Of a DNA stretch of 46,035 nt, positions 11,041 to 37,912 are shown in pieces. How positions within the stretch are numbered: position 1 is the first letter of the stretch; every line of letters starts with the position of its first letter. A program made the position numbers and the translations under genes. The notes under the pieces were generated by a model. That model was given only the letters and a program-made list of their open reading frames with translations, made no database searches and had not been told where the DNA came from. Origin of the DNA: a virus. The DNA lies in the IMG/VR virus record IMGVR_UViG_3300021959_000084, positions 1 through 46,035 of that record. One strand, 5' to 3'.

Positions 11041-12426
11041 TCATGTCCATCCTCCTGCTGACACAGTTTTTATTTCCCTGCGCCTAGCTAGTAAGTCCCC
11101 GTCAGATGCAGAGCCTACATGTAGCATAAAGTACTGTAAGGCTTCGGCAACGTGGCTATGTTTGTTTTTATCTATAGTCCCATTCTTTTTATGAAACCTA
11201 TACCCGCCCATCATCGCAGCTTTTAGCTGTGAACAACGAGGGTCTACTACAAATGCACTGTCGCCATCTACTTGTCGCATAAGAAAATCATCTACTGAAC
11301 TAAGTCTTGCACTAACATTGTTAGTTTTAGCGGCAATAACGCGTAATCCTTCTGCTTTTATGATGTCCACAGCGCTACGTTCGTCGGTCTGCGCACGCTG
11401 TACACCTGCCGGATCGACCACAATAATCACAGGAATACCGGAAAAACGCTCGTATAACAGGGGTTTTAGTATCGTGCGGACAAATCTTTGCACGCCCATG
11501 TCGAAACTAACAGCTTCGTCATATACAAGGACTCGTCCACGGGGGTCTTGTTGCCCTATAATTGCTGCTGGAGTCAACCCTAAATCCATGCCAACTACAA
11601 TAGGCCTTACACCGTTACTAATAGGGCGCAAAGAACCCTTACCCATATGGTAGTCTGGCCTAAAATACTTATACACAGGCTGACCTGCAGAGCTTAGGCC
11701 GTAGTCACCATCAATAAATACACGGATATATTCTTCACTACGCCCCTGTGTATCATAATACCCGTCAGGTAAATTCTCAATGTTCTCAGCAAACGCACTT
11801 CGTCCGCTTGGCTGTTTAAATACGTCCCAACCGTTATCATTAGTACCTACTCCATCTTTAGGGTCAATCTGTTCCATCTGATAGTACCACCACGTATCCA
11901 TAGTTGGCGGGTTTGTATCACCCCACATACCATACCACGTTGGGCCGCCGTCTTTAGAGCTAGGAAAACGCCCAATACGTTTAGACATCGCATCAACAAT
12001 GTCAGGGTGTATATCTCTACACTCGTTGAACCACGCAAACGAAAGCTCTAAAGAGTTAAGGTTAGCTACATCATCTGCATCGTCCAGCGCACGAAACATT
12101 ATCTCACACTCAACATCACCGACTTCAAAAAAATAAGTTTTAGTCGTACGCATGTAACGTCCGCACACCCCAGGGGGAAACCAGTCAAGAAAAGTTTTAA
12201 TGACTGTATCCTGTAGCTGCCTGGCAGTCTCACGAACAACAGCTGCACGAGTTCGCCGCTTACCTGTAGCGTCAGGTTTCTGCATAGAAGCGCGCCGTAT
12301 AATTTCAAATGAACAAGTCACGGACTTACCGGAGCCAACCGGCCCCATAAGCACCCGCATCTTTTTTTCCGAGTTCATAAATTTCTCACCTGTAGCAGGA
12401 GGAGTGTAACTTATGTCAAGTGCCAT
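11041..12426 (-). CDS. Terminase large subunit
   Basis: The 461-aa product has both halves of the packaging motor. Walker A is GPVGSGKS at residues 28-35; Walker B with the catalytic Glu is LSFAWFNE at 128-135 (E135). The RNase H-like nuclease half shows GMDLG (D281), VVDPAG (D338) and a terminal HSHVAEALQYF at 424-434. Length is typical of short podovirus terminases. It overlaps the upstream 69-aa ORF by 11 nt and ends before a terminator. It hydrolyses ATP to drive DNA through the portal and cuts concatemers; the cutting mode cannot be read from the sequence alone. Confidence 0.93.
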   Translation of the reverse strand: MALDISYTPPATGEKFMNSEKKMRVLMGPVGSGKSVTCSFEIIRRASMQKPDATGKRRTRAAVVRETARQLQDTVIKTFLDWFPPGVCGRYMRTTKTYFFEVGDVECEIMFRALDDADDVANLNSLELSFAWFNECRDIHPDIVDAMSKRIGRFPSSKDGGPTWYGMWGDTNPPTMDTWWYYQMEQIDPKDGVGTNDNGWDVFKQPSGRSAFAENIENLPDGYYDTQGRSEEYIRVFIDGDYGLSSAGQPVYKYFRPDYHMGKGSLRPISNGVRPIVVGMDLGLTPAAIIGQQDPRGRVLVYDEAVSFDMGVQRFVRTILKPLLYERFSGIPVIIVVDPAGVQRAQTDERSAVDIIKAEGLRVIAAKTNNVSARLSSVDDFLMRQVDGDSAFVVDPRCSQLKAAMMGGYRFHKKNGTIDKNKHSHVAEALQYFMLHVGSASDGDLLARRREIKTVSAGGWT

Positions 12427-12625
12427 TAGAAACCCCCGGAGGTATAGTATGAAGCAACATTATAATTATCTCCCTAGCTCTACGATTTTTTTTCGCTGGT
12501 ATAATCGCAGTCTTAAATGAATATCCTGCGCGAATAAGCAGTAGTCTAAATGTATTGTAGTCTGTCACGTTATTGAACCTAGCTGCAGGAAACCCTTTAT
12601 AATCTCCGTCAAACTTATCCAACAT
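12416..12625 (-). CDS. Small ORF between terminase subunits (69 aa)
   Basis: Starts MLDKFDGDYKGFPAARFNNV and ends in a basic/hydrophobic stretch (KKNRRAREIIIMLLHTIPP). The ATG at 12625, with GAGG 6 nt upstream, overlaps the small terminase stop by 11 nt, and its own stop overlaps the large terminase start by 11 nt. This tight nesting argues that it is translated. I do not recognise the family. A role in packaging or as a translational bridge between the terminase subunits is inferred. Confidence 0.6.
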   Translation of the reverse strand: MLDKFDGDYKGFPAARFNNVTDYNTFRLLLIRAGYSFKTAIIPAKKNRRAREIIIMLLHTIPPGVSNGT

Positions 12626-13085
12626 TAGAAACCTCAACGTCTTCTACTTCATGATCCACCGTCATAGTTTTATCTTGGCCGCCTAGGTTTATAGTTATCT
12701 TAACTCCACCTGCTGCACCCGCATCTCCATCATCGGCTTTCGTCTCTAACCCCGCCCACTTAACTGTAGACTTAATTAAATCTGCTTTAACAGCAGCAGA
12801 TACGTCTGGGTTGTGTATTAAAGTCCACGAAGTAGTAAGCAATTCTTCTGCTTGAGCACGCGCTTTTAGCTTAAAAGTAAGGCCTTTTTCCTTAATATCG
12901 TCCCGATATGCGCTTACACGCTTCATAAATACCGGGTCATTCTTGTACCCAGATATATCTTGACCACTTACTTTATGGCGCTGTTTAACTTCGTCGACTG
13001 TTTCACCGCTGCCTTCAAGCATTAATGCTATATCAAAGGCTAAACGATCAGACCACTTGGTATGAAATAACGGTAGGTTATCCAT
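12615..13085 (-). CDS. Terminase small subunit-like DNA-binding protein
   Basis: The ATG at 13085 has AGAGAGG 7 nt upstream; a longer reading from a TTG at 13136 has no such site, so 156 aa is preferred. The sequence MDNLPLFHTKWSDRLAFDIA has an HTH-like segment VDEVKQRHKVSGQDISGYK, then a helical oligomerisation region (LKARAQAEELLTTSWTL) and a beta/acidic tail (GGVKITINLGG, ending VEDVEVSNVG). Position at the head of the late block directly before the large terminase fits the recognition subunit that selects phage DNA for packaging. It is the first gene after the divergent regulatory gap. Confidence 0.75.
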   Translation of the reverse strand: MDNLPLFHTKWSDRLAFDIALMLEGSGETVDEVKQRHKVSGQDISGYKNDPVFMKRVSAYRDDIKEKGLTFKLKARAQAEELLTTSWTLIHNPDVSAAVKADLIKSTVKWAGLETKADDGDAGAAGGVKITINLGGQDKTMTVDHEVEDVEVSNVG

Positions 13086-13413
13086 TCTGATACCTCTCTT
13101 TGTGGCAACTATAGGTGCATTGTGCGGAATCGGCAAGCAAATTTAATTACAAAGTATACAAACTTTACACCTTCCTTTTTTTGGGTCGTGCTATGAGAGG
13201 TTTACTATATTAAGGGGGGCAAGAAAATTTGCCAGTCCAACTACCCCCCCTCCCCCCTACCTCTTAAAAATAAAACTCTTTATAAACAAGGGCAAAGGTA
13301 GCGAAACTTTACATTTTTAAATTAATATGGGAAAACATAATTGTCGACAGGGACAGTGACCCAACAGACAGTTCTTTGAAAGGTGGCACTGCACCAAACT
13401 AAAGGAGATTAGC
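13086..13413. promoter_or_regulatory. Divergent control region between early and late blocks
   Basis: This 328-bp gap has no convincing gene. It must hold the leftward late and rightward early promoters. Visible elements: a nested structure in which AGAGGT (13196-13201) pairs with ACCTCT (13259-13264) around a GGGGGG run (13214-13219) and two C runs (13244-13250, 13252-13257); an AT-rich stretch at 13308-13341 with TTTACA and CATAAT in the early direction but badly spaced; and TATACT/TGTAAT-like -10 elements in the late direction near 13155. No hexamer pair is close enough to consensus to call, so a phage-encoded or host activator may be needed. Confidence 0.55.
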
Positions 13414-13919: not shown

Positions 13920-13928
13920 CACCAATCA

Positions 13929-13965
13929 ACCCTGTTAGAGCAATCTAGCAGGGTATTTCTTTGTC
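13929..13965 (+). terminator. Strong intrinsic terminator after the first early genes
   Basis: ACCCTGTTAGA and TCTAGCAGGGT form an 11-bp stem with one T-G pair and a GCAA (GNRA) tetraloop, followed by ATTTCTTTGTC. It lies 10 bp after the 52-aa gene and closes the first early transcript before the iteron region. Confidence 0.8.
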
Positions 13966-14079
13966 TATTGTTTTGTTGCTCACTATGTTCGCCATTCGTC
14001 GGGGGTTTATAGAGTCACGCGCGAGACCATCAAGAGCCACATTAGGGGCAGATAGGGTGTTATAGTGCTAGTTAAGCCA

Positions 14080-14105
14080 AACCTTACAACTAGTTAGATT
14101 AGTTA
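14080..14105. repeat. Left arm of perfect 26-bp inverted repeat
   Basis: Begins AACCTTACAACTAG and ends AGATTAGTTA. Its exact reverse complement is at 14325-14350, with a 219-bp spacer. The arm itself contains TAGTTAG iterons, and 13 bp of it (AACTAGTTAGATT, 14088-14100) is repeated directly at 14106-14118. Confidence 0.85.
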
Positions 14106-14200
14106 AACTAGTTAGATTTCTTACTGCCTCAAAACCTTACACCTTACACTCCGTAAACCCTTATAAACCATACATATTCGCTAAAAGTATACAGTTATAT

Positions 14201-14227
14201 TAGTTAGAATAGTTAGATTAGTTAGAT
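14201..14227. repeat. Three tandem 9-bp iterons
   Basis: TAGTTAGAA, TAGTTAGAT, TAGTTAGAT in direct tandem order. The same core is present in the inverted-repeat arms and scattered copies nearby, as expected for an initiator or repressor binding array. Confidence 0.8.
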
Positions 14228-14324
14228 TTATTTAATAACCCTTCCCCTGTAGAGATTATATGGCCATATACATAACTTGACATAATATATACTCCACTAG
14301 GCAGGCCTTATTATTATTTATTTC

Positions 14325-14350
14325 TAACTAATCTAACTAGTTGTAAGGTT
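14325..14350. repeat. Right arm of perfect 26-bp inverted repeat
   Basis: Begins TAACTAATCTAACTAG and ends TTGTAAGGTT. It is the exact reverse complement of 14080-14105; identity stops at the next base on both sides. Confidence 0.85.
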
Positions 14351-14480
14351 ACAGAAAATAAACCTAATAATATCATATACTTACTACTAGTTAAATTGCT
14401 AGTTATTCTGCCATATCTCTTATCTAAAATATCCCCCCTATTAACTAGTTGCATAACTCTTTGACTTGGCGGGGCGAAAC

Positions 14481-14509
14481 TTGACACTTTTTTGCCGATC
14501 TGCGATACA
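14481..14509 (+). promoter_or_regulatory. Candidate sigma70 promoter for second early operon
   Basis: TTGACA (6 of 6) at 14481-14486, 17-bp spacer, then GATACA (3 of 6) preceded by TGC, an extended -10-like context. A second TTGAC occurs exactly 20 bp upstream at 14461. It is placed 50-80 bp before the first gene of the long early operon. The -10 is weak, so activation may be needed. Confidence 0.5.
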
Positions 14510-14561
14510 GAAAACTCGATTTTTCGAAAGTTTTAATTTCAACCAAGCGGAGGAAATCCCT

Positions 14562-14837
14562 ATGAAGCTAACTAACCAATGGACATCACTGTCAAGTTTA
14601 CAAGACCTCGAACTCAACAAATCTATAAATGTGAAACCTCGTCGTCGTTCGTATCTATCACAGCGTGATGCTGTTTATGATTACATGGTAGGCCATGATG
14701 TTGTTATTATCGACAACACGTCTAGCTACAACGGAAGTGTAATGTCAGTACTCGACACTGAGTACCTCAAACGTAATGGTTATGTAACTTTACATCTACA
14801 CTACAACAACGATCAACAAGTGGAGCTAACCTTATGA
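14562..14837 (+). CDS. Unknown early protein (91 aa)
   Basis: GGAGG 8 nt upstream supports the ATG at 14562 rather than a longer reading. The product has a polar N-terminus with a basic patch (VKPRRRSYLSQRD), then DAVYDYMVGHDVVIIDNTSSYNG and a C-terminal strand region (YVTLHLHYNNDQQVEL). The central block resembles a small alpha/beta fold, but I do not recognise the family. It is the first gene of the long early operon and overlaps the next by ATGA. Confidence 0.68.
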   Translation: MKLTNQWTSLSSLQDLELNKSINVKPRRRSYLSQRDAVYDYMVGHDVVIIDNTSSYNGSVMSVLDTEYLKRNGYVTLHLHYNNDQQVELTL

Positions 14838-16041: not shown

Positions 16042-17037
16042 ATGAGAGCAACACTTATGAAGGAAACGCTTAAAGATATGCACAAGATACTACGACCTGT
16101 AGTCATAACTGGAGCGCCTGGAGGTGGTAAGACACAGATCGTACAACAAGTTGCTAAAGAGCTTGGCGTTCACTACATCCAACGTCACTTACCTACAATG
16201 CCAGTAGAGGATTTCGGTATCCCTATGATTGATCAACCTCAACTCTATTACAAGATACCTGATTGGTTTCCTGCTGTTGGTTCAGTATGGGACGATGGTA
16301 GAGGTGGTATAGTTTGCTTCGATGATCGTAACCAAGCCGACAAAGACATACAGAAAGTCATGGCAAACATATCAGAAGAACGTGAGTTACATGGCGTTAA
16401 GATGGCAGATGGTTGGCATATTGTATCTACTGGTAACAGATCGACAGACAGAGCAGGTGCTTCCAAGGTTCTAGGACATCTTGCTAATCGTGAGACTGAG
16501 CTAGAGTTAGACACTCACCTAGATGACTGGCGTTCATGGGCTATAGACAACAGCGTTAAGACCGAGGTTATAGCGTTCATCGGTTTTCGTCCTAACCTAC
16601 TGCATGATTATGACCCTCAACGTGATGGTGCTAATCCTACCCCAAGATCATGGGTAGCAGGAGTTGGTGATGTACTAGGTGTTGTACGACCTGAGGCAGA
16701 GTTCGAGTGTTTCAAGGGTGCTATCGGTGAGGGTGCGGCGGCAGAGTTCGTTGGCTTTATGCGTATCTATCGTAAGCTACCTAACCCTGATGCTATACTA
16801 CTCAGTCCTGATACATCAGATGTACCTACTGACCCTGCTACATTGTATGCTTTGTCTGGTGCATTGGCAGAGCGTGCCAGTATCAAGAATATGCCCAAGC
16901 TATGTACCTATATCAAACGTATGCCGCCAGAGTTCGGTGTACTTTCTATGAGTACCGCTGTTCGTCGTGACCCTGATCTATGTACATCAGACGCATTTAC
17001 TAACTGGGCTGTAGATAACCAAGACGTATTATTTTAA
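16042..17037 (+). CDS. MoxR-type AAA+ ATPase
   Basis: The 331-aa product has Walker A GAPGGGKT at residues 24-31, a Walker B-like GGIVCFDDRNQA (D94, D95), a sensor-1-like block with IVSTGNRSTDRAGA, and the arginine-rich second half usual in MoxR/RavA-type ATPases. Members of this group work as chaperone-like partners of VWA-domain proteins. Here a DUF3150 gene and a metallopeptidase-VWA gene follow in the same operon, matching that pairing. GGAG lies 9 nt before the ATG. The phage role is unknown; remodelling of a host or phage complex is the likeliest activity. Confidence 0.85.
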   Translation: MRATLMKETLKDMHKILRPVVITGAPGGGKTQIVQQVAKELGVHYIQRHLPTMPVEDFGIPMIDQPQLYYKIPDWFPAVGSVWDDGRGGIVCFDDRNQADKDIQKVMANISEERELHGVKMADGWHIVSTGNRSTDRAGASKVLGHLANRETELELDTHLDDWRSWAIDNSVKTEVIAFIGFRPNLLHDYDPQRDGANPTPRSWVAGVGDVLGVVRPEAEFECFKGAIGEGAAAEFVGFMRIYRKLPNPDAILLSPDTSDVPTDPATLYALSGALAERASIKNMPKLCTYIKRMPPEFGVLSMSTAVRRDPDLCTSDAFTNWAVDNQDVLF

Positions 17038-18083: not shown

Positions 18084-19223
18084 ATGGATATAATGAAACG
18101 ACTATCCAAGGCTAAGACTGCCTTGGTACTAGAACATCCGTTCTTCGGTGCTATAGCTTTAGGTATGCCAAGTGTTATTGATGACACTATACCAACTGCT
18201 TGTACCAACGGCAAACTAATACGATACAACCCTGACTTTGTTGATGGGCTTACCGATGGTAACATTGTGTTTCTTATGGCTCACGAATGTTTTCATCCAA
18301 TGCTTGGTCATATATGGCGGCTATCAGGTCGTGACCCTAAGCTATGGAATGTAGCAGGCGACATCATTATCAATCAGATGCTTGTCGATGATGGCATAGG
18401 TGACTTCATAGAGGGCGGCCTGCTCGACAAGAAGATGTTCGAAGAGGGCGGCGGTACTACTGACGGAGTGTACAACCTGTTGTCACAACCTAAACGTGGG
18501 TCTGGAAATACAACAGGTGACGATAACATTGTTGTAGGTATGGATATTAACGGCGGTATCGGTATGGATATTGGCGAGGCTGAGGGTGAGAGTGCTGAAC
18601 AAGAGCAAGATGAGGCCGAGTGGCGTATCAAGGTAGCTCAAGCGGCACAGTCTGCTAAGATGGCAGGCAAATTGAGTGGCGGTTTAGAACGTCTTGTTAC
18701 TAACATACTCAATCCCAAAGTACCTTGGGAAAACGTACTAGATACTTTCTTACAACGATGTAAGGCTGACGAACGTACTTTTGCTAGACCTAATCGTCGT
18801 TTCATAACTCAAGGTATGTATCTACCATCTAGGACTGGTGAGATGTTAGGCGAGGTTGCTTTCTTTATAGATTGCTCTGGCTCTATAACTGATGAGGATA
18901 TAGCCCAGTTTGCGGCAGAGATTACCAAGGTACACCGCGATCTAATACCAACCAAGCTACACGTTATATACTTCGACACCGAGGTATCACACTACGATGT
19001 GTATGAACCTAACGATGAACTTGACATCAAGGCTCATGGCGGCGGCGGTACTAGCTTCGATAAGTTATGGCCGTTCCTAACTGACAACGATGTTGATCCT
19101 ATTGCGGCTGTAGTTCTTACCGACTTATGTTGTTACGACTTCGGCGATCAACCTGAGTACCCTATACTATGGGTATCAACTGATGAAACAGAAGCACCCT
19201 TTGGTGAAGTGGTGATGATGTGA
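18084..19223 (+). CDS. Putative metallopeptidase with C-terminal VWA-like domain (DUF2201 type)
   Basis: The 379-aa product has an N-terminal metallopeptidase-like domain with HECFH at residues 67-71 (HExxH) and a further His at 76 (GHIW), then an acidic Gly-rich linker (about 140-180), and a C-terminal VWA-like domain with FFIDCSGSI, whose DxSxS (D263, S265, S267) is a MIDAS metal site, plus GGGGTSFDKLW and VVLTDL later. This is the architecture of DUF2201 proteins, which pair with MoxR ATPases. The full set of MIDAS and zincin residues suggests that both sites are functional. The protein substrate is unknown. Confidence 0.82.
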   Translation: MDIMKRLSKAKTALVLEHPFFGAIALGMPSVIDDTIPTACTNGKLIRYNPDFVDGLTDGNIVFLMAHECFHPMLGHIWRLSGRDPKLWNVAGDIIINQMLVDDGIGDFIEGGLLDKKMFEEGGGTTDGVYNLLSQPKRGSGNTTGDDNIVVGMDINGGIGMDIGEAEGESAEQEQDEAEWRIKVAQAAQSAKMAGKLSGGLERLVTNILNPKVPWENVLDTFLQRCKADERTFARPNRRFITQGMYLPSRTGEMLGEVAFFIDCSGSITDEDIAQFAAEITKVHRDLIPTKLHVIYFDTEVSHYDVYEPNDELDIKAHGGGGTSFDKLWPFLTDNDVDPIAAVVLTDLCCYDFGDQPEYPILWVSTDETEAPFGEVVMM

Positions 19224-21175: not shown

Positions 21176-21607
21176 ATGAAGAAGAAATTAAAAGCAGATA
21201 AAATCTGGAAGTATAAGTTAGCTAATCCAACAGCTACAAACAGGCAGATAGCTAAGGCTTGTGGAGCGCACATTACATACGTTACGTCTCTAATGGGTAG
21301 GACAGGTACGCCTAAAGAAATACTTGAAGCACCTAAACCTATGAAGCGTGGTGACATACTAGACAAAGCTAAAGAGTATGTAACTAAAGACAGGGCTTCT
21401 CAACATGGTGACATGGAGAAAAACTTTACGCTTATAGCTGACTACTGGAGCATACATCTTGGGTGGCTAATAGAACCTACTGATGTAGCGGTGATGATGA
21501 ACCTATTAAAAATAGCACGCATCAAATCTAATCCTGCTAACCTAGACAACTTTATAGATGGTGCAGGCTATATGGCATGTGGTGGTGAGATTGCGGCCAA
21601 AAAATAG
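21176..21607 (+). CDS. HTH plus DUF6378-like protein (143 aa)
   Basis: Residues about 14-42 (LANPTATNRQIAKACGAHIT) form a helix-turn-helix; residues about 58-143 (ILDKAKEYVTKDRASQHGDM, then PTDVAVMMNLLKIARI and NFIDGAGYMACGGEIA) match the small all-helical domain I know as DUF6378, common in phages. An 'R..QHGD' and 'D...G' pattern in that domain resembles helical nucleotide-pyrophosphohydrolase-like families, which is speculative. The combination could be a regulator that senses nucleotides. It lies about 100 bp upstream of the polymerase. Confidence 0.7.
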   Translation: MKKKLKADKIWKYKLANPTATNRQIAKACGAHITYVTSLMGRTGTPKEILEAPKPMKRGDILDKAKEYVTKDRASQHGDMEKNFTLIADYWSIHLGWLIEPTDVAVMMNLLKIARIKSNPANLDNFIDGAGYMACGGEIAAKK

Positions 21608-26468: not shown

Positions 26469-27428
26469 ATGAGCAACCTAGTACCAACAAATATCCAAAT
26501 CCCTGCACACCTAGCAGGTAAAGTAGGGCAACCTTCCTCTTTAGCACAGTCACTAACAGGTGGCATTACAAGTGGTGAAGGTAGTGGCTTCGCTAAAATA
26601 TCTATTAAAGGTAGTCGCTTCCGCATAGTAGAAGACGGCACAGAGACAGTCTTAGATACTACTAAGTTACCAGTAGTTATTGTGGGTGCTAACCCTAAGC
26701 TATCTAAAACTTACTACGCTAAAGCGTGGGACAAAGATGCGGAAGCTAGCGCACCTGATTGTTATTCCTTAGATGGCACAAGCCCTCACCCTGACAGTGA
26801 AACGCCACAGAACGATGTATGTGCGGCGTGTCAGTGGAACGCATGGGGTTCTAAAACTGGGAACAATGGTCAACAACTTAAGGCATGTGCCGACCAGAAA
26901 CGTCTTGCTGTAGTTGCGGCTGATGATCCTACAGGTAAGGTCTACCTACTACAAGTAACACCTGCCGCACTAAAAGGTCTCAACGCATACCAGAAAGAAC
27001 TATCGACACGCGGTATTCCACCAGAGATAGTTAAGACAGTAGTATCCTTTGATACTGATGCGTCATTCCCTAAGTTATTGTTTGGCTTTGGCGGCTTCAT
27101 TGATGAGACTACACAGTCAGCATTAGAAAATGTGTTTGGTTCTGAGCAAGTTAAAGAGATAACAGGCGAAGTGTTACCTGCTATTCCCCCGGTAATTACG
27201 GAGACAAAGAACCCTAAACCTGTTCTGGTAAAAGCTACACCAGACCCCGCTGGCAAAGAGGCTAAGACAACACACGGCTTTGGTTCTGGACAAACTCAGG
27301 CTGCGAAGATTGAAGCCCCTGCAGCCAGAGAAGAAGAACCTAAAGCTGCGAAGGTTGTCGATGCGGACGTAGGTAATCTTGCCAGTGAGATTGACGATTT
27401 ACTAGGAGACCTTGGTGCAGATGACTAA
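26469..27428 (+). CDS. SSB-like protein with Cys cluster and acidic tail (319 aa)
   Basis: An N-terminal beta region (GFAKISIKGSRFRIV, then VVIVGANPKLSKTYYAKAW) is followed by a Cys-containing module, DCYSLDG (C98), NDVCAACQWNAWG (C117, C120) and KACADQKR (C139), that could hold zinc; the middle continues YLLQVTPAALKGLNAY; and the last 70 residues are disordered, ending in a strongly acidic tail (EIDDLLGDLGADD). A single-strand binding protein with an acidic tail for partner contact fits best and agrees with the neighbours (primase-helicase, helicase, polymerase). Not homologous by eye to bacterial SSB. Its end overlaps the next gene by 8 nt. Confidence 0.65.
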   Translation: MSNLVPTNIQIPAHLAGKVGQPSSLAQSLTGGITSGEGSGFAKISIKGSRFRIVEDGTETVLDTTKLPVVIVGANPKLSKTYYAKAWDKDAEASAPDCYSLDGTSPHPDSETPQNDVCAACQWNAWGSKTGNNGQQLKACADQKRLAVVAADDPTGKVYLLQVTPAALKGLNAYQKELSTRGIPPEIVKTVVSFDTDASFPKLLFGFGGFIDETTQSALENVFGSEQVKEITGEVLPAIPPVITETKNPKPVLVKATPDPAGKEAKTTHGFGSGQTQAAKIEAPAAREEEPKAAKVVDADVGNLASEIDDLLGDLGADD

Positions 27429-27705
27429 GAAACCATTAGACTTTGAAAAGGTTGAAGCACTTAGGGAGCATATGCTCCTTAGTGTTAAACATATGTCACA
27501 GCTTATGGGTGTGTCGCGGATGACTTATTATGGGTGGGTTAGAGGTAAGCCCATCCGTGATAACAATGAAGCTAAAGCGAAACGGATATTGCGACAACTA
27601 ATATCTCTTGTTAAGGAAGGCCAATGGCCTACCGAGAGTTCAAGAAGTATGAGCGCGCTATCCAGATACGAAACTTTACTTGAGATTTTAGAAACTCAGG
27701 AGTAG
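27421..27705 (+). CDS. Small HTH protein (94 aa)
   Basis: The ATG at 27421 lies inside the end of the SSB-like gene; a GTG at 27415 has a better-spaced AGGAG and is a real alternative. The sequence has a clear helix-turn-helix, LSVKHMSQLMGVSRMTYYGW (residues about 20-39), of the type in Cro/MerR-like or transposase-like small regulators, followed by a basic helix (KAKRILRQLISLVKEG). It may control the primase operon or bind an origin. Only about 50 bp separate it from the primase gene. Confidence 0.72.
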   Translation: MTKKPLDFEKVEALREHMLLSVKHMSQLMGVSRMTYYGWVRGKPIRDNNEAKAKRILRQLISLVKEGQWPTESSRSMSALSRYETLLEILETQE

Positions 27706-27755: not shown

Positions 27756-30614
27756 ATGGACACGTTGAGTTTTCTTCAGCGAGTTTTGCCAACGGAGGGT
27801 ATATACTGCACAATAGTTGTAGAACGTCAGGGTGAAAAAGATTACCTGAGACAAGCCTTTTACAACTCCGTTGGAGAACTTGAGCAGGCACTTATCAGTT
27901 TAGATAAGAGAAAAAGAAATGTTTACTACGCTACGTCAGCGTTTGTAACGAAAGAAAGTAGGAAACAATCTAACGTACGTACGACCAAGGCGTTGTATAT
28001 GGACGTAGATTGCGGTGAAGGTAAAGATTATCCATCGCAGAAAGAGGGGCTACAAGCCCTACTAAAATTTATAAAAGACACAGGGCTACCCAAGCCTATG
28101 GTGGTATCATCAGGTAATGGGCTTCATGTATACTGGGTACTCACGAGAGAACTAGAGCCAACCGAGTGGCAACCTCTTGCTGATGCTATGAAGCGTTGTG
28201 TTTATGAGAATAATTTTAAACAGGATATGTCTGTCCCTGCCGATAGTGCAAGAGTACTACGAGCAGTAGGTACACATAACCCCAAAGGTGGCAACCAAGT
28301 AAAGCTATTGGTAGACAAGCCCCCTGTAACACCAGAACAAATGGCAGAGTGCTTTAAAGATTACATAGTAGCACCGCCTGTAGGTCTAAAGAAAGCTGTT
28401 CAAGGTAGTTCTTTGTTAGCTAACTTGGCCGTAGAACAAGAGTACCCACCATCAGTAGCCAGTGTAGTCAAGACTAAATGTCAGCAGATTGCTTGGGCTG
28501 TGGATAACCAAGACCAAGTGCAAGAACCTATGTGGTATAACCTTATAGGCGTGGCGGCGTTTTGTGTAGACCCAGAAGAGACAGCTAAGGAGTGGAGTAA
28601 GAACCATCCTAGTTATGATGAAGCTGAGACACTGCGTAAGTTGCGCAACTGGCGACAGGCTGTAGATGGGCCAACAACTTGTGCTAAGTTTGACAGCGAA
28701 AGGCCAGGGGGGTGTAAGGGGTGTCCGTTTAGCGGTAAGATCGGAAGCCCTACCAGACTAGGTGCGCAGTTTGAAGAGGTAGATACATCGGCAGATGCAC
28801 CCGAAGATGTGATAACTGAGATCAACATACCTAAGCCATTCAAGAGAGCGCAAAGCGGTATAAAGATTACCTTGGACGATACTGATATAGATGTATGTGA
28901 CTTTGATATATACCCTGTAAGCTATGGCCGAGATGAATCACTGGGCTACGAGGTATGTAGGTTTAAATGGAACAGACCACATGTAGGTTGGCAAGACTTA
29001 ATACTAAGACAGGCTTACCTAGCAGATGGTACGTACCAATACTTTGTTAGTATAGTAGCTGACCAAGGTATTGTGTTAATAACTAAAAAACAAACGGAGT
29101 ACTTTCAGTATATGTTACGTTCATACATGAATGAATTGCGTAAGTTCAGAACTATGACTAACCTTTACGCTTCAATGGGTTGGAAAGAAGACCACAAACT
29201 ATTTGTCTTAGGTGATACTTTATACAGGCGTAAGCCTGATAGTACTATAGAAAAAGAATCTATAAAACTAGCGTCTGCTTCTTCTCGTATAGGTAGTGAT
29301 ATGTTTGGTGTGTCGGGAGACCTAGACACATGGAAAGGTATGACAGGTTTACTACAACGTGCTGACCTAGATGCTCACATGTTCTCTATAGGTATAAGTC
29401 TAGCCTCACCGCTACTTGAGTTCACTGGCCTTAAAGGTATGACTGTATCCCTGTTCGGTAAGACAGGCGGCGGTAAATCTTTAGCACAGTTAATGGCTCA
29501 ATCAGTATGGGGTAATCCAGATAAGCTACACTTCCAAGCTAAGTACACGCAGAACACACTGTTTAGCAGGTTTGGTTTGTACGCTAACCTACCTATAACT
29601 ATAGACGAAGTTACGATGATGTCCGATAAAGACGTAGGTGATTTCTTATATTGGGTCAGCCAAGGTAGAGATAAAGCTAGGCTTAATAGGAACGCAGAAG
29701 AACGTGAGGCTAAGACATGGGCTACGTTCTGCATAGTCTCTACTAACAGACCGCTTAGTTCTAAGATGGTTGCATCAGGGTTAGACACTGACGCACAGAT
29801 GGCTAGACTACTTGAGCTTACTGTTACACCTAGCAAGTTATTCACAGATAGTTCTAACATAGGTAAGAAACTCTTTGATCTTATGTCTACAAACTATGGT
29901 GGGGCAGGAGATATATTCGTACAGAAGTTAATGGAAATTGGGCCAGAAGGGTTGCGTGCTATGATAGCTGAGGCCACCAACAACTTCCATTCTAAGTATG
30001 GTGTTAAGTTTACAGGTGAAGAACGATACTGGGAACAGGTTATTATTCTTGCTGACTTAGCCATTAACTTGGCTCAAGGGTGGGGGCTACTAGCTTTCAA
30101 GTCAGAACCTTGTGTTAAGTGGGCGCTTAATCAGATCAGTACTCTACGTAGAACAGTATCAGAAAACCAGATTGATGCGTTTGATCTTATATCAGAGTAC
30201 CTCAACGAGTTTGCAGGTGATACTGTTAGGGTCATGCACACAGGTAAGATACCTATGGTTGATTATGAACGAGTACCACGTAATGGTATTAGAGCTAGAG
30301 TAGATGTACATAGGAAGGTATCATCAGACCCATTCGACAGTGGGACACTGATGTTAGACCGCGCTCACTTCCGTAAGTGGTTGTCTACTAGAGGTGGGGA
30401 TTACAAAGGTATAACAGATATACTTAAACAAGAACTCGCTGACGCTACACCATCTGGTATGAGAGCTTCGCTAGGTAGAGACACACCTATTAAGATACCA
30501 CAGACTTATGTGATAGGTATAAACCTAAGACACCCAAGGATGGTAGGTTTACTAGACGAAGCTGAGATAGCGTATGAAGACTTAACATTAGGTCAGTTAC
30601 AGATAGTACCTTAG
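27756..30614 (+). CDS. Primase / DUF927-type helicase fusion (952 aa)
   Basis: The N-terminal third is an archaeo-eukaryotic primase-like domain: YMDVDCGE (D83, D85), SGNGLHVYW (H124) and DSARVLRAVG (from D163), then a helical region with C309, C320 and C323 (TTCAKF, GGCKGCPF) that may bind zinc. The C-terminal half fits the DUF927 helicase group: FGKTGGGKS (Walker A, about 566-574) and LPITIDEVT (Walker B, about 612-620), then IVSTNRPLS. The fusion would prime and unwind at the fork, serving the family A polymerase. It ends by overlapping the stop of the convergent late gene. Confidence 0.85.
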   Translation: MDTLSFLQRVLPTEGIYCTIVVERQGEKDYLRQAFYNSVGELEQALISLDKRKRNVYYATSAFVTKESRKQSNVRTTKALYMDVDCGEGKDYPSQKEGLQALLKFIKDTGLPKPMVVSSGNGLHVYWVLTRELEPTEWQPLADAMKRCVYENNFKQDMSVPADSARVLRAVGTHNPKGGNQVKLLVDKPPVTPEQMAECFKDYIVAPPVGLKKAVQGSSLLANLAVEQEYPPSVASVVKTKCQQIAWAVDNQDQVQEPMWYNLIGVAAFCVDPEETAKEWSKNHPSYDEAETLRKLRNWRQAVDGPTTCAKFDSERPGGCKGCPFSGKIGSPTRLGAQFEEVDTSADAPEDVITEINIPKPFKRAQSGIKITLDDTDIDVCDFDIYPVSYGRDESLGYEVCRFKWNRPHVGWQDLILRQAYLADGTYQYFVSIVADQGIVLITKKQTEYFQYMLRSYMNELRKFRTMTNLYASMGWKEDHKLFVLGDTLYRRKPDSTIEKESIKLASASSRIGSDMFGVSGDLDTWKGMTGLLQRADLDAHMFSIGISLASPLLEFTGLKGMTVSLFGKTGGGKSLAQLMAQSVWGNPDKLHFQAKYTQNTLFSRFGLYANLPITIDEVTMMSDKDVGDFLYWVSQGRDKARLNRNAEEREAKTWATFCIVSTNRPLSSKMVASGLDTDAQMARLLELTVTPSKLFTDSSNIGKKLFDLMSTNYGGAGDIFVQKLMEIGPEGLRAMIAEATNNFHSKYGVKFTGEERYWEQVIILADLAINLAQGWGLLAFKSEPCVKWALNQISTLRRTVSENQIDAFDLISEYLNEFAGDTVRVMHTGKIPMVDYERVPRNGIRARVDVHRKVSSDPFDSGTLMLDRAHFRKWLSTRGGDYKGITDILKQELADATPSGMRASLGRDTPIKIPQTYVIGINLRHPRMVGLLDEAEIAYEDLTLGQLQIVP

Positions 30615-33600
30615 TCTGCAACCATAGCTTCAAAGAACTTGTCCAAGTCTTTACGTGCGGCAAGCGGAGAACTTCTGAGGGTACGTTGGGCGGCAGTCTT
30701 GCGTGCCTCTTTTTCTGCTTTGCGTACGTTCTTACGGAAGTTTCTAATCTCCATAGGCGTACCTTTGGCTGTCTTGTTCCACTCTTTAACGCTTTTCTCT
30801 ATGCTTCTTCTCTGGCTTTTATTACCTTTAAGCCATGCCTGCTTGAACTCCGTGGTTACACTACGTTGATAATCAGTAACTCGTTTAGCGTACTTGATCG
30901 CTCCGTACTGGTCAGCGGCTTCTTTAGGGTAGAAACCTAACAGCCTACCTAGAAGTAACATACTACCCATGTCTTCCGTCACAGTATAGCCACGTTTGTC
31001 TACGACAGTACCATTCTTTAAGTAAGCAAATGCGTCAGCAAAATTTCTTAGTGTAGTAGAGGGGGCTTTGCGAAGTGCATCACCTGTGGTTACTGTAGAG
31101 GAAAACGGAGCAGATGCGGCTAGGTATGCAAACTCACCTGACTGCTCAAGGAAACCATAGGCGGGGCCGAATATGTCTTTGATTTCTCTGTATTTATCTG
31201 AACCTGATAAAAAGAAACCTGTCCCAGGGATTACGTTGCCTAGAGACACACGACCACCAATATCTATAGGCATTACCTGATTGAGCGCACCAGTAAGTAA
31301 GAACTTAGACGATCCGGGGTATAAATCCTCAAGAAGTTTAGCCGCTTCGAACCTTACGCTACCTGATTTAAACCCAAGTGCTTGACCTAAAGTATCTATC
31401 AAGTCTTCTAAGTCTTCTGCTAGTGGTATACCTGACATACCTGACATAACTATAAGGCTAGTTAGCATACCTAACTTACCATTGCGTGACAGGTTAGCAA
31501 ACATCTGTATGGATGTAACTGGATACACCTTATACATATAGACAAAAGACATCCAACCATTACGGAAAGCATCTGGTCTGTTAAGAACAGAGTACTCACC
31601 CATAGTATTGTTTATAGCTTCAACAGAAAACTTAGTAGCTCCTGCGTTTGCTTCTGCATCTGATTTACCTACTGATTTTAGTCGCGCAAACTCTAGTCTA
31701 TACGCCGCAAGGCCAAAGCCTCTTCGCGCACCGCGTTCAGTTGCGTTAAACGGATACATGAAAGCGTCTACAAATTTTTGCATCCATGCTTTACTCATGT
31801 TGCCCCGTGATAGACCCATCATGGCGTTACTCTGTGCAGGTATCATCACACCTTCACGTATCTCTTGTGCTAAGAACTTAGCTTCTAGTTCAGTTAGGTT
31901 ATGTTCTGCCTGTAGTGTTTTGCTTTTGGCTACGCCATCATAGAACTCAGCCCTGTCAAAGTTTAACCCTGTATTCTTAGCGCCAAATCTTTGTAGTTGA
32001 TCTCCTGCTAGTCCCCTAACACCAACGTCAGCCATAGCTTTGTTGATAGAACCTATAGATGCAAAGCCAAATCCTCCGCCAAACCCTGTCTTACTGTTGT
32101 GGCTAGATAGATAAGGTAGTCCGTTCACATAAACACCTATAAAGTTTAGCGTACCTGTAGCAATAGAACCCCCTAGCTGAAACAAACTTGCGAATGAGCG
32201 AACGCCTGCCGCCATCTTACTGGCTTCAAAGTCCGACATAGATACGTCACGATTGTTATTAAGGAAGTCAATACCTCTAGCCGCTTCCGCGTGGTACTCG
32301 TTACCATAGTTTGTACCACCGCGTTGAGTGTTCTTTACCATACTATCCAGCTCTGCGTATTGATAAGAAGCGTCAGTGCGTACTGCTTGTGATAGCGACA
32401 TATCTTCCTTCATAGCTTTTAAGTTAGCTAATCTTTGTTTAGTTTCGCTACCATCCATACGCCACTTCTCTCTGGATTCACGTAGGTTTAGGTTCATTAG
32501 GTTAGTCATTGCAGGGCGTAACTGTGTCTTAGCTATAGTAGCGGCACGTTTATCTATGTGTTGTGACACTGAGAGTACACCATCAAGGTCACCCCCGGGG
32601 GTAAAGCTACGCTCAAGACGTTGTCGTGCGCTTGCGTTCTGTCTAGTAAGGCCTGTAACAACTCGCTCCATCTTGGTAGGCGATAGGTTAATATCAAAGA
32701 ACTGTATACCACGTACAAAATCATTTAGGTTAAGCTCAGGTGGGCCAGATACACTGTCAAGCACAGCTTCAGACACAGCTTCTAGTGTGACTGATTGCGT
32801 AGTAAAGTCACCTGTGTTTGTATCTTTTACTAGCGCTTTAAAGCTAGTAACTTTACCCATGTCTTCGTTGAACGTACCTGCAAGACGCTCAGCATCACTA
32901 GCTTTATCTACTTGTTTGTATACAAGTAAGTCTTGATGTCGTTCATGTAACTGTACAACCTTACCATTAACTTTAGCTTGTATACGTATTTGGAATCGAC
33001 CTTCTCTCATCACGGGGGTGTAGCCAGTTGCTATCGAACGCTTGGCATATAGGTCTGACTCACGGTTTAGATAGTCTGAAAGCATAACCCTACGTACTTC
33101 TTCTTGTAATAGGAACTTAGTACTGTCATCGTTAAGCAGGCGACTACGTAGGCTGTCTAGTTGTGCGACTACATCTTGACCTTTAGCTTTGTTAGTACCT
33201 TCGTAGAAAGTTTGTACTGTCTTACCTTTATCTTTTGTAGCACCGATAAGATATTTGTTTATGGATTCTATATATTTCTCTGCGTTTGCCATAGCAGTAG
33301 CGGATGGTACAAGCATACCTTTGTTGTCAGTAGTTAGGTCTGTAACGTACAACTCACCCATGTAGTCTATGATACCACGAATAGCAGTTTTGTCTTCAGT
33401 TGTTAGTCTACCATTATCACGTATCAAGTTGTTAAGGTTAGTCATTACGTTAGCTTTTTCTTGTAAGTATGCGTTATACTTAGCTTTTACTAACTCTATC
33501 TCTACGTTATCCATAGCTTCACGTACTTTTTTGTAAGCTATGTACTCTATACTTTGGTCTGTAAGGTTCGGTATACCTTTAACATCCACAGTTTTAGACT

Positions 33601-36600
33601 GTTCTACATTGTTTTCATCTAGGTACACATCTTGATACGTATACCCATCACGTAATTCTTGTAGGGTTCTAGTACCCATCTTCTTTAATCTTGCTAACTC
33701 TTTATCTATAGTCTCTGGCTTACCATCTATAATTTGTAGTAATGATACCTTACCATATTGGTTGTTAAATAGGTTAAGAGCTTTACGTTGCCCATCGAAT
33801 AGCATTGTGTTTACTGTATTAGTTTGCTCGCTAGTTATCTGTCCTGCGGGGCCGAACTTCCTGTTAAGCGCCGCTTTCATAGTATCATTGGCACGAATAC
33901 GTACGTCACTAGCTATGTTACCATGAGCCATAAACATCTGGTGGATGTCAGCAAGCCCTGCATTTTTACGTGCGCGGTAGTTAGATAAGCTAAGGTACTT
34001 AGCACTGAATCTGTCGAACCTATCTTTAATATCTTTACCGCCAGAGGTAGCTTCTTTCCATATTTCTTCCCAGTTAGTAGGTAGAGGTTTACCCTGACCC
34101 ATGGCTTTAGCCGCTATTATATTAGCAACACGCATGTTAGTGGCAGGTGCGAACCTACCAGTGCTAGCTTCTCCTGTATTAGTTGTCACGTCTTTGTACT
34201 GTTGTGCTACTTCGGACATGATAACTAGCTGACCACCGCCACTAGAGTTTGTTCGTGTGTATTTTCTCGACTGATCTACAAGGTAGCGGATGTCCTCGTC
34301 ACCAAACTTAGCGCCAAACTTGTTAAGAAATTTCTTAATGGCGTTAGATATACGTGCTATGACAGATGTGTCTATAACTGCGGCGTAGTCTGCTATGTAT
34401 TCTTCGACAGCTTCAGCTTTGCTTTGCCCATACGCTTCCATTGTACTGTCGACTGCTGACTGAACATACTCGTTGTTATCATACAAGCTCTCCATTAGAG
34501 CATTGAACTGTTTCTTAGGTACAATACTACGTAGTCCGTAGTGTCCTAGTACTTCGTGAGCCATGACAAAGTTTAGATGCTGTTGGTTAGCTATCTTATC
34601 TGAGAATATAATAACTGTACTACCATCGAACGCATAGCCTACTGCGTTCTGTGTGTCAAAGTCTCCTTCAGTACGTGCGGCGGCGGCGGCTTTATGCAAC
34701 TGGGGGTTTCTAGCTTTGAGGTCTGCTTGATCTCGGTATACAAATAGCTTTGGCTTTACTTCTAGTTTGTTTATAAACTGACGTGCAAGCATACGGACAC
34801 GGCCATTGGCCATGGTTCGTACCGGTGTACCGTCTTCGGTGACAGCTCCATCAAGTGAGAACCTACCTGAGTCTCTACCTTGTTTACCTGTAACAGCAAG
34901 GTCTTTCATAGCATCCACAAATTCCATAATAGATGTGTTATCATTTGGTTTTGTGTTAGCTAACTCTTCTTTAATATTTGCAGGGGTTGCTACTCTACCT
35001 CCTGCTTTAGCAGTGTTAAACTCTACGCCAACATTTAGTAAGTCAGGTATAAGCCCTTGCTGTTGTAATAAAGTAAACCCAGGGTTAACGCCTTTACTAT
35101 CCATAACATTAATAGTTTCTAGTTCTTCAGCTACTACTAATAGAACTGCACGACTATCATCATTATAAATAAAATCATCTAAGTATTCTCTAGCTTGATT
35201 ACGTTTCTTTATACCTTCGCCTTTAGTAGGTGAGAAGTAAGCAGTACGTACAAGAGCGTATAAGTTTTGTTTATACTTAGCTCCTACTTCTGTTTCTATA
35301 TTAGAAATCATGTCGTCAACGCTAGAGTCTCTGTATATTTGTTCTTCTGGTTCTAACGAAGTACCTACGGGGGCGTTAAGAGCTACGCTAGATAGGTCAG
35401 CATCTGTAAGTTTACCTTTTGTAGCTTTAGTATTTATACTACGTTGTTCTGATACAGATAGACTAGCAAACTCTGGTAGTGCGGCGTTACCACGTTGTTT
35501 CTTAAAGTCATTGTAAGCATCACGACCTACACTTAAGTCTTCTTCTACTACTGGTTTAGGTTCTACCTTAGGTTCTACCTTAGGTTCTACTACCACTGCT
35601 CCCTTTGGCTGAGTTTTCTTTAGAATTTTCTTTTTAGGCTCTGCTTTTTTCTTTAGCGTTTTCTTTGGCTGAGTTTTCTTTTTAGGCTCTGCTTTTTTCT
35701 TTAGAGTTTTTTTACCGCCAGTAGGTGGGCCATCAGGCTCGTTAGGGTTACGTATTAGCGGTTCACGTTGGCCTTTAGGTTGCGCTTTAGTTTTACGTAG
35801 CTTGTCAAACAATTCTTTGTTGGCAGTACCTTCTCGCACAGCTTGCACCCACTCTCGTTGAGCATCCATTTGCCGCGAATCAAGTGTAACTTTACTAGAT
35901 AACTTCTTGCGGCTGTCGTTAAACTGATCCCACAAGCTAGTAGCATCTACGTATTCATCTACTGTTAGTGTATCTGCAAAGGCTTGTTCGGATCGTTGTC
36001 GTTCTGCAGCTTGGAAGTCTGCATCTCGTTGTGTTCTATCAGCTTCAGCGTTACGTTGATCTTCTTGAGCTTGATTCATAGCCTGTCGTAATGGGTTAAG
36101 TCCTTCGAACATAGCTGAATTAATAGGGGGCGGCGGAGGCGTAGCGTTAAATGATTCAGTAAATCGTAGCTGCCCTTGGTCTTCTAATTCTGCTTGTGTA
36201 TCAGTCACTTGTACAGTTGGGCGCAGTACGTTGCCAGTAAATGGTAGCTCTTGCCCAGTAACACGCGCTTGTGTAGCTGTATCTAAACCCATTTCAGTTG
36301 GGGTAAACATCTCTGCCTGCCCTGTGCTATCAGGTGCAACAGGTGCAACAGGTGCAGGTAAATCTAATTCCAGTTGACCTTCTATTGGGCCTTGTGTCTG
36401 CGGCGGCCCAAAATCAAACGCTTCTTGAGCAGGGTCAGTAGTAATAGGTTGTTGACCTAACTCTGCACCAGCACCAAACAACTCTCCTTGTTCGCCTTGA
36501 TAGTTTGTTAGTAGCGTAGGAGCAGGAGCTTGGCCTAAGGGCGTGTCTTCGCCAAATAACTCTCCTTGTATAGGAGCGACAGGAGCGACAGGAGTTTCTT

Positions 36601-37912
36601 CTGTTTTCGTAGCACTACCTAATGCGTCAACAGGTTTGCCTTTACGTAAGTTAACAATACCACCGATTGTACCACCTACTGTAAACCCTGCAACAGCAGA
36701 CTCAATTATGCGTGATAGATATTCATCATCTTCGTAAGCTCTATACCGCCCACCCGCTGTCATGTTTAAAACTTCTTGACCTGCTTCGGTAGCACCTTCT
36801 AATGTTCCGCCTACAACAGCGCCTTTAAATAATCTTTTTGCTACACCACTAGGTGACACACCCGATAACCCAAATAGTTTACTAGCTGCTATAGCTTCTG
36901 GTATTGTAGATAGAATTGCATACGGTATACCGAGTGCTGCTGCTATGGCTCTAGCATCTTTATCACCTGCGCCTGCACCACGTTCTCGTTGCTCGTTGTA
37001 TATATCAGCTGTACCAATAGCATAATTGTTAATTGCTGTAGCCGCGCCTGCGCCACCTAATTGCGATAGTGCTTTACGTTGAGTAGCACTTAAACTTTTT
37101 ATACCACCCTTAGTATATTGTTCTGCCGCTTCCTTAGCAACTTTTTTAAATGCGGCTTTACTAAACATAGCCCCTACGGATGCAAGCGCACCACCTACTG
37201 GGTTAGCAGTAGTAGCAGTACCGGCTGCAAAACCTGCAAGGCCAACGCCGATAGTCTCTATAATATTTGGGCCTTGTTGTCCTATCATAGACACAGCGTA
37301 CTCAATCGCACTAAGTTCACCGCTAGCTACATCTGCAGCACTGGCTTGAAATGGCGATAGTTCTTCTGATCGTTCGCTTGCTCTGTTTACTATACCAGAA
37401 CCTAATTCTTCAGCACCAAGGAACTGTAGCCCTGCACCACCTAATGTCTTTAGTCCTTGCGTACCAAGTTCAAAGCTACGTTTAAATCTAGTGCCAAGAG
37501 TAGGGTCTTCAATACGCCCTAGGTATTCAGAGTATTGTTCTCTGGATAACGGCGACCAAGCTCCAGGTTTACGAGGCACTCCACCTTTGCCTAAATATTC
37601 TTTAGACCTTACAGCATCAGCATAGTCATCTACTTGGAACTCAAACCCATTAACAGACATAATACCTGAACCAGAATCAAATAATATATCATCACCTCCT
37701 GAAGGAGATGCTTTCATTTCGGGAACGCTGTAATCAAAATCACCTATACTAGACTCAGGCATTTTTTGGATTAACGAATCTGCCGCAGACGGAGTAAGCC
37801 CACCTAAACCTGTTGCGGCAGCTGCACTCCAAGGATCATTAGGTCTTGGTCGTAGTCCTATACCCATTGCTTCGTCTGGAGTTTGTCCATACCGCAAAGT
37901 TCTGTTGGCCAT
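30611..37912 (-). CDS. Giant polyvalent / ejection protein with zincin-like motif (2433 aa)
   Basis: AGGAG precedes the ATG by 6 nt. The N-terminal 430 residues include hydrophobic Gly/Ala-rich stretches (about 215-260 and 285-420) that could enter a membrane. Residues 449-590 are Pro/Gln-rich with repeated QxELF-like motifs; about 730-785 is a Lys/Pro-repeat linker. Around 1119-1126 is AHEVLGHYGLR followed by EEYIADYAA, the motif pair of zincin-like domains in polyvalent phage proteins. The C-terminal part (about 2120-2190, FVYMYKVYPVTSIQMFANLS, then GIPLAEDLEDLIDTLG) matches what I know as LPD38, with a basic tail. Position beside SLT and membrane-active proteins suggests ejection into the host. 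Confidence 0.8.
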   Translation of the reverse strand: MANRTLRYGQTPDEAMGIGLRPRPNDPWSAAAATGLGGLTPSAADSLIQKMPESSIGDFDYSVPEMKASPSGGDDILFDSGSGIMSVNGFEFQVDDYADAVRSKEYLGKGGVPRKPGAWSPLSREQYSEYLGRIEDPTLGTRFKRSFELGTQGLKTLGGAGLQFLGAEELGSGIVNRASERSEELSPFQASAADVASGELSAIEYAVSMIGQQGPNIIETIGVGLAGFAAGTATTANPVGGALASVGAMFSKAAFKKVAKEAAEQYTKGGIKSLSATQRKALSQLGGAGAATAINNYAIGTADIYNEQRERGAGAGDKDARAIAAALGIPYAILSTIPEAIAASKLFGLSGVSPSGVAKRLFKGAVVGGTLEGATEAGQEVLNMTAGGRYRAYEDDEYLSRIIESAVAGFTVGGTIGGIVNLRKGKPVDALGSATKTEETPVAPVAPIQGELFGEDTPLGQAPAPTLLTNYQGEQGELFGAGAELGQQPITTDPAQEAFDFGPPQTQGPIEGQLELDLPAPVAPVAPDSTGQAEMFTPTEMGLDTATQARVTGQELPFTGNVLRPTVQVTDTQAELEDQGQLRFTESFNATPPPPPINSAMFEGLNPLRQAMNQAQEDQRNAEADRTQRDADFQAAERQRSEQAFADTLTVDEYVDATSLWDQFNDSRKKLSSKVTLDSRQMDAQREWVQAVREGTANKELFDKLRKTKAQPKGQREPLIRNPNEPDGPPTGGKKTLKKKAEPKKKTQPKKTLKKKAEPKKKILKKTQPKGAVVVEPKVEPKVEPKPVVEEDLSVGRDAYNDFKKQRGNAALPEFASLSVSEQRSINTKATKGKLTDADLSSVALNAPVGTSLEPEEQIYRDSSVDDMISNIETEVGAKYKQNLYALVRTAYFSPTKGEGIKKRNQAREYLDDFIYNDDSRAVLLVVAEELETINVMDSKGVNPGFTLLQQQGLIPDLLNVGVEFNTAKAGGRVATPANIKEELANTKPNDNTSIMEFVDAMKDLAVTGKQGRDSGRFSLDGAVTEDGTPVRTMANGRVRMLARQFINKLEVKPKLFVYRDQADLKARNPQLHKAAAAARTEGDFDTQNAVGYAFDGSTVIIFSDKIANQQHLNFVMAHEVLGHYGLRSIVPKKQFNALMESLYDNNEYVQSAVDSTMEAYGQSKAEAVEEYIADYAAVIDTSVIARISNAIKKFLNKFGAKFGDEDIRYLVDQSRKYTRTNSSGGGQLVIMSEVAQQYKDVTTNTGEASTGRFAPATNMRVANIIAAKAMGQGKPLPTNWEEIWKEATSGGKDIKDRFDRFSAKYLSLSNYRARKNAGLADIHQMFMAHGNIASDVRIRANDTMKAALNRKFGPAGQITSEQTNTVNTMLFDGQRKALNLFNNQYGKVSLLQIIDGKPETIDKELARLKKMGTRTLQELRDGYTYQDVYLDENNVEQSKTVDVKGIPNLTDQSIEYIAYKKVREAMDNVEIELVKAKYNAYLQEKANVMTNLNNLIRDNGRLTTEDKTAIRGIIDYMGELYVTDLTTDNKGMLVPSATAMANAEKYIESINKYLIGATKDKGKTVQTFYEGTNKAKGQDVVAQLDSLRSRLLNDDSTKFLLQEEVRRVMLSDYLNRESDLYAKRSIATGYTPVMREGRFQIRIQAKVNGKVVQLHERHQDLLVYKQVDKASDAERLAGTFNEDMGKVTSFKALVKDTNTGDFTTQSVTLEAVSEAVLDSVSGPPELNLNDFVRGIQFFDINLSPTKMERVVTGLTRQNASARQRLERSFTPGGDLDGVLSVSQHIDKRAATIAKTQLRPAMTNLMNLNLRESREKWRMDGSETKQRLANLKAMKEDMSLSQAVRTDASYQYAELDSMVKNTQRGGTNYGNEYHAEAARGIDFLNNNRDVSMSDFEASKMAAGVRSFASLFQLGGSIATGTLNFIGVYVNGLPYLSSHNSKTGFGGGFGFASIGSINKAMADVGVRGLAGDQLQRFGAKNTGLNFDRAEFYDGVAKSKTLQAEHNLTELEAKFLAQEIREGVMIPAQSNAMMGLSRGNMSKAWMQKFVDAFMYPFNATERGARRGFGLAAYRLEFARLKSVGKSDAEANAGATKFSVEAINNTMGEYSVLNRPDAFRNGWMSFVYMYKVYPVTSIQMFANLSRNGKLGMLTSLIVMSGMSGIPLAEDLEDLIDTLGQALGFKSGSVRFEAAKLLEDLYPGSSKFLLTGALNQVMPIDIGGRVSLGNVIPGTGFFLSGSDKYREIKDIFGPAYGFLEQSGEFAYLAASAPFSSTVTTGDALRKAPSTTLRNFADAFAYLKNGTVVDKRGYTVTEDMGSMLLLGRLLGFYPKEAADQYGAIKYAKRVTDYQRSVTTEFKQAWLKGNKSQRRSIEKSVKEWNKTAKGTPMEIRNFRKNVRKAEKEARKTAAQRTLRSSPLAARKDLDKFFEAMVAD

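Follow-up and report, generated by a model that had tools for sequence, protein, structure and literature searches.

A repeat element at 13920-14561 is very probably the replication origin of the podovirus in which it was found, with the phage's own 952-aa PrimPol-DUF927 helicase as its initiator. The window, by which we mean the whole stretch of DNA analysed, is a virus record of 46,035 bases from an uncultured and widespread podovirus; the full genome may measure about 50-60 kb, and the contig is possibly incomplete. Early and replication functions are encoded on the plus strand from 13.4 to 30.6 kb, where the operon specifies a MoxR-like AAA ATPase, a DUF2201 metallopeptidase/VWA protein, a family A DNA polymerase, a RecB-like exonuclease, a DNA helicase, a small HTH protein and the 952-aa protein, which combines a primase-like N-terminus with a DUF927 helicase. 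Minus-strand genes occupy 30.6-46 kb and 0.8-13.1 kb and include those for the terminase large subunit (11041-12426), a portal-like protein, the major head protein and an internal virion protein. GC skew reaches its minimum at 15240 and its maximum at about 30.7 kb; the minimum fits an origin and is inseparable from the gene-strand switch, and because skew follows gene strand it was left out as evidence. There is no close isolate on record; among named phages the nearest are Pseudomonas phage Rollin and Rhizobium phage RHph_TM27A, which share about 22-27% of the 952-aa protein.

The element had been singled out from the sequence as a candidate origin, a TAGTTA-rich field framed by a perfect 26-bp inverted repeat, and every part then described is present beyond chance expectation. 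The arms of the inverted repeat are separated by a spacer of 219 bp. TAGTTA, described as occurring more than ten times in both orientations, has nine copies on the plus strand and three on the minus strand within 14040-14450. The whole window has 65 copies. Of the nine window copies of TAGTTAGA, seven fall in the same interval. When 13920-14561 was shuffled 1000 times with dinucleotides preserved, perfect inverted repeats reached a length of 15 at most (26 observed), TAGTTA reached 8 copies at most (12 observed), and the best 9-bp periodicity was 17 of 22 (19 observed). The 14-bp palindrome is found in the core (Table 1). The stretch is also gene-free, with no ORF of at least 60 aa between 13919, where a 52-aa plus-strand ORF ends, and the early operon at 14562, bar a TTG extension upstream to 14466. 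No RNA family was detected in the element by Rfam, and a DNA search with it among phage records gave no true match.

Table 1. Positions of the origin features and of the proposed initiator in the window
Feature	Position	Strand	Basis or content
Terminator-like hairpin and tail, left border	13929-13964 (hairpin 13929-13954)	+	pattern scan, 11-bp stem
Conserved motif CCATTCGTCGGGGGTTTA (also window CATTCGTCGGGGG)	13992-14009	+	sequence recurring in many relatives
Left outer iteron copies	14068-14118	+	TAGTTA at 14069, 14091, 14100, 14109
Left arm of perfect 26-bp inverted repeat	14080-14105	+	box B and two iterons
Box B ACCTTACA	14081-14148	+	copies at 14081, 14134, 14141; ACTTTACA in relatives
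Inner left array, four 9-bp units	14192-14227	+	CAGTTATAT / TAGTTAGAA / TAGTTAGAT / TAGTTAGAT; layout kept in relatives
AT-rich core between arrays	14228-14322		31% GC; holds CCCTTCCCCTG (14239-14249) and palindrome TATATGGCCATATA (14257-14270)
Inner right array, two inverted 9-bp units	14323-14343	-	TAACTA at 14325 and 14334
Right arm of perfect 26-bp inverted repeat	14325-14350	-	box B (ACCTTACA) at 14342-14349
Right outer single iteron copies	14388-14447		14388 (+), 14400 (+), 14442 (-)
Early-operon promoter-like site	14481-14509	+	sequence: TTGACA, 17 bp, GATACA
Proposed initiator: AEP/PrimPol domain, Cys cluster, DUF927 AAA+ helicase, C-terminal winged-helix-like domain	27756-30614	+	Pfam, NCBIfam, PDB profile, AlphaFold, Foldseek
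C-terminal domain of proposed initiator, residues 784-946, including Q805 and S905	30105-30593	+	covariation, model

Relatives were drawn from IMG/VR through the ATPase, the DUF927 protein and the polymerase. Lack of iteron conservation among them had been named as grounds for abandoning the origin reading; about 40 genomes keep the architecture but not the spelling, which drifts. Nearly every genome with DNA available upstream of the ATPase gene repeats one hexamer 3-12 times within 450 bp; plus-strand copies lie on the left side of an AT-rich core and minus-strand copies on the right, and most genomes have exact 9-bp pairs. Where automatic detection worked, the inner arrays of relatives were 78-115 bp apart; the spacing is 96 bp in the window, 105 or 96 bp in L084, 106 bp in L104 and 107 bp in L093. 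In relatives the array pair, accompanied by scattered single copies, precedes the MoxR-like ATPase gene by 1.4-3.6 kb, and the inverted 9-bp layout persists at ATPase identities of 57-76%, despite diverged sequence and iteron spelling. Many relatives also have CCCTTTCC and a palindrome in the core, the latter constant in position and variable in sequence. The perfect 26-bp repeat is restricted to the window's species, and the nearest relatives keep the inner array pair instead; because it is not conserved, we no longer regard this repeat as the functional frame of the element.

The drift in spelling follows genome groups. The window's species spells the hexamer TAGTTA and L084/L085 spell it TAGGTA; a second set uses TATCTA and a third AATCTA. 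Within the third set, G024 is rich in GATCTA and some copies in the L095 group read AATCTG. L086 mixes AATCTA with AAGGTA sites. AC precedes the hexamer in most single copies, which fixes the reading strand as (A)C-WANNTA. The left array can be read on the opposite strand as ATCTAACTA, a reading that was rejected as the single copies share (A)CTAGTTA and not ATCTA. Some of the genomes whose iterons begin with A (A-type), namely G022, G024, G042 and G043, carry degenerate left arrays and only a few copies that are perfect.

Thirteen early proteins, together comprising 4,337 alignment columns, were then sorted by the first base of the iteron (T or A) in 31 and later 42 genomes. Perfect sorting was seen in two of the 4,337 columns, and both belong to the 952-aa helicase, at residues 805 and 905 of its C-terminal domain; within a class, both vary little. 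At 805 all T-type genomes have Q and A-type genomes have K, R or S, and at 905 T-type genomes have S and A-type genomes have Y or F. A tree of five other early proteins shows four changes of the first base, and residue 905 moved the same way as the first base in essentially all pairings. The pair sign test gave a p value of 0.125, which cannot reach significance because there are only four independent changes of iteron type. When labels were randomised on the tree with an equal number of changes, at least two such columns in one protein arose in 2.5% of 600 trials. The iteron types of the first 28 genomes, which were the rule-setting sample, were assigned by eye. All 14 genomes typed after the rule had been set agree with it (G041, G042, G043, seven from polymerase flanks, G070, G072, G076 and G077), many of them being close kin of genomes already typed and G043 adding an independent change. 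L331 and L387, with upstream DNA included, conform to the rule. A similar rule for the third base, which pairs R908 with G, comes from two genomes only, and a search for a genome with both AAGGTA iterons and the helicase gene found none. Separately, the DUF927 proteins of L065-L067 and L329/L398 have unusual residues, N905 and T905, at the proposed specificity position, and the stretches retrieved for them hold no origin.

The helicase belongs to a family with known origin-binding members. Pfam recognised DUF927 (E 2e-29), the family of SCCmec Cch and SaPIbov1 Rep (PMC7581432), and the NCBIfam match to SCCmet_Cch1 was far below its cut-off. A PDB search with a profile built from 30 relatives returned SaPI Rep (8tch) and SCCmec Cch (5dgk). 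The whole-protein AlphaFold model had Cch (5dgk) as its best fold match in Foldseek (E 1e-17), its N-terminus matched the PrimPol domain of cyanophage S-2L (TM-score 0.72 on target), and Cch was the sole confident match of the C-terminal model alone. Residues 869-892 are predicted to fold into a pair of helices, after which come a loop and a strand (893-923), a winged-helix-like arrangement with S905 in the wing; the C-terminal region of the model is of moderate confidence (mean pLDDT 74), and residue 805 lies in a low-confidence junction.

These results suggest that the element is a SaPI/PICI-type replicon with features specific to the podovirus clade. In a SaPI/PICI origin, two sets of iterons flank an AT-rich region (Ubeda et al. 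2007, as given in PMC7581432; PMC6092414). The C-terminal domain of SaPI Rep recognises the iteron origin, the isolated C-terminal domain of Cch2 binds Cch2 iterons, and binding by two hexamers has been proposed (PMC7581432). The podovirus shares with these replicons the AT-rich region between two sets of short iterons and a DUF927 helicase of the SaPIbov1 Rep family encoded in the same genome as the origin, and it shares with some PICIs an AEP primase fused to the helicase. The C-terminal domain of its helicase, in which residues 805 and 905 covary with the iteron type, may likewise recognise the iterons. In contrast to a PICI, which is a satellite without virion genes, it is a tailed phage with its own genes for terminase, portal, capsid (major head) and internal virion proteins and its own PolA-type polymerase. 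Its iteron sequence, the 9-bp spacing and the possible wing code are the clade's own. Moreover, the origin lies directly 3' of rep in PICIs, whereas here it lies at 14.2 kb, about 13.5 kb upstream of the initiator gene (27.8-30.6 kb), a distance that counts against the origin reading. SCCmec differs further in that no primase is fused to Cch, the Cch2 origin has only three 5-nt iterons and SCCmec is a chromosomal cassette (PMC7581432).

Two phages offer further parallels. The alpha protein of phage P4 unites primase, helicase and C-terminal origin recognition in one polypeptide that acts on short iterons, as proposed here for the 952-aa protein. P4 replication needs two separate regions, ori and crr, whereas the window has a single iteron cluster, on a contig that may be incomplete. 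Pseudomonas phage Rollin (OR577172) encodes a 27%-identical PrimPol-DUF927 protein with V at residue 905. Its gene-free region contains TTGCATA three times at 9-bp spacing (TTGCATAC/TTTGCATAC/TTTGCATAT, at about 526-553), then an AT-rich stretch and inverted AATATGCAA copies (615-623), in a partial record with an N-run beside this region. The two-arm arrangement therefore appears to extend past the metagenomic clade, with an iteron spelled differently from those of that clade. Rhizobium phage RHph_TM27A was dropped as a carrier, as no clear two-arm iteron layout was recognised in it.

Conserved architecture, covariation of iteron and helicase, and family precedent all support the original prediction of a replication origin. 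We prefer an origin over a simple regulator operator because the iteron type covaries with C-terminal residues of a primase-helicase, whose family has iteron-binding C-terminal domains (PMC7581432). The minimal origin would span about 14192-14343, with two opposed sets of 9-bp iterons around a core of about 95 bp and accessory iterons flanking it on both sides. The C-terminal winged-helix-like domain would read WANNTA, often with AC before it, and residues 905 (in the wing) and 805 would set the first base, T with S905 and Q805 and A with Y/F905 and K/R805; a short recognition code in the wing is our hypothesis. One helicase hexamer would assemble on each array, and the inverted arrays would place two hexamers head to head. 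The core would then melt, the fused primase would lay primers and the PolA-type polymerase would extend them in both directions. Loading or early transcription is probably tuned by the outer iteron copies and the repeats of box B. On balance we favour the broader view that the two-arm iteron origin, attributed as of 2018 to no bacterial replicon but PICIs, also replicates a large and diverse clade of free-living podoviruses, in which iteron and C-terminal domain co-evolve via a short code (S905-T and Y/F905-A for the first base of WANNTA, possibly R908-G for the third).

We also considered that the iterons might serve early transcription. As a refinement compatible with an origin, the helicase may, tentatively, both initiate replication on the iterons and repress or time the early promoter, with box B bound by a second protein such as the HTH protein at 27412-27705. 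The accessory iterons come as close as about 40 bp to the promoter-like site and two distinct repeat classes are interleaved, as this would predict, though regulation by the helicase or by a box B binder is putative. The promoter-like site itself was not reached by a sigma-70 consensus scan. Many relatives have a -35-like ACTTGAC[A/G] followed after 17 bp by a hexamer such as GAGACT, TAGTCT or TAGACT; the -35 is constant (ACTTGACA) and the -10 unusual. Box B repeats of the ACCTTACA/ACTTTACA class are interleaved with the iterons, and in L118 (2300-2600) some five of these copies have changed in concert to ACTATACA, which points to a second DNA-binding protein that has a specificity of its own.

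That the iterons are solely the sites of a phage transcription factor switching the early operon, with the origin elsewhere, is unlikely. A conserved promoter-like site just to the right would suit such an operator, as would box B, which changes jointly per genome between ACCTTACA, ACTTTACA and ACTATACA as protein sites would; yet the covarying residues belong to the replicative primase-helicase rather than to an HTH regulator. Two HTH proteins had been put forward as iteron binders, and both fit worse than the helicase: the recognition helix of the 27412-27705 protein, SRMTYYGW, is almost unchanged across all iteron types, where a reader of the repeat should change with it, and the 21176-21607 protein is patchy, having been found in only 9 of 31 genomes. 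To our knowledge, paired 9-bp arrays around an AT-rich core are also no usual layout for operators. A packaging or recombination site, or chance repeats, is very improbable: the terminase genes (11041-13136) are nearby, but contig ends do not cluster at the element among the loci listed, and the shuffle test and the covariation with the helicase argue against it. Least probable of all is a partition site (centromere) of a plasmid-like phage; clustered direct repeats can act as parS-like sites, but Pfam and PHROGs found no ParA/ParB-type protein among the early proteins searched, and the covariation implicates the helicase.

An origin initiated by the helicase would have wider consequences. The origins of most environmental phages are unknown, and here sequence suffices to name the origin, the initiator and candidate residues for specificity in about 40 genomes; co-evolution of initiator and iteron is therefore directly testable. 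If the recognition code is true, origin specificity could be read and predicted from the protein. The reading also links satellite (SaPI/PICI) and SCCmec replicons to a class of complete phages, and bears on where satellite replicons come from and on whether satellites may share an origin with such phages.

Several minor features were observed in the window and its relatives. The largest gene by far (30611-37912, minus strand) encodes a late protein of 2,433 aa with zero Pfam matches. The MoxR-like AAA ATPase and the DUF2201 metallopeptidase/VWA protein form a pair within the replication operon (16042-17037 and 18084-19223), and N4-like phages carry distant homologues of the ATPase. In L310 alone an additional tandem-repeat block (GTAGCAGTTGTGTACGATTGT) was seen on the right-hand side of the origin, about 2.2-2.5 kb ahead of the ATPase gene. 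The motif CATACGTCGGGGGG occurs in most relatives (for example L301, L095, L406 and L087) after the terminator, about 80-250 bp left of the iterons, and is possibly a packaging or priming site.
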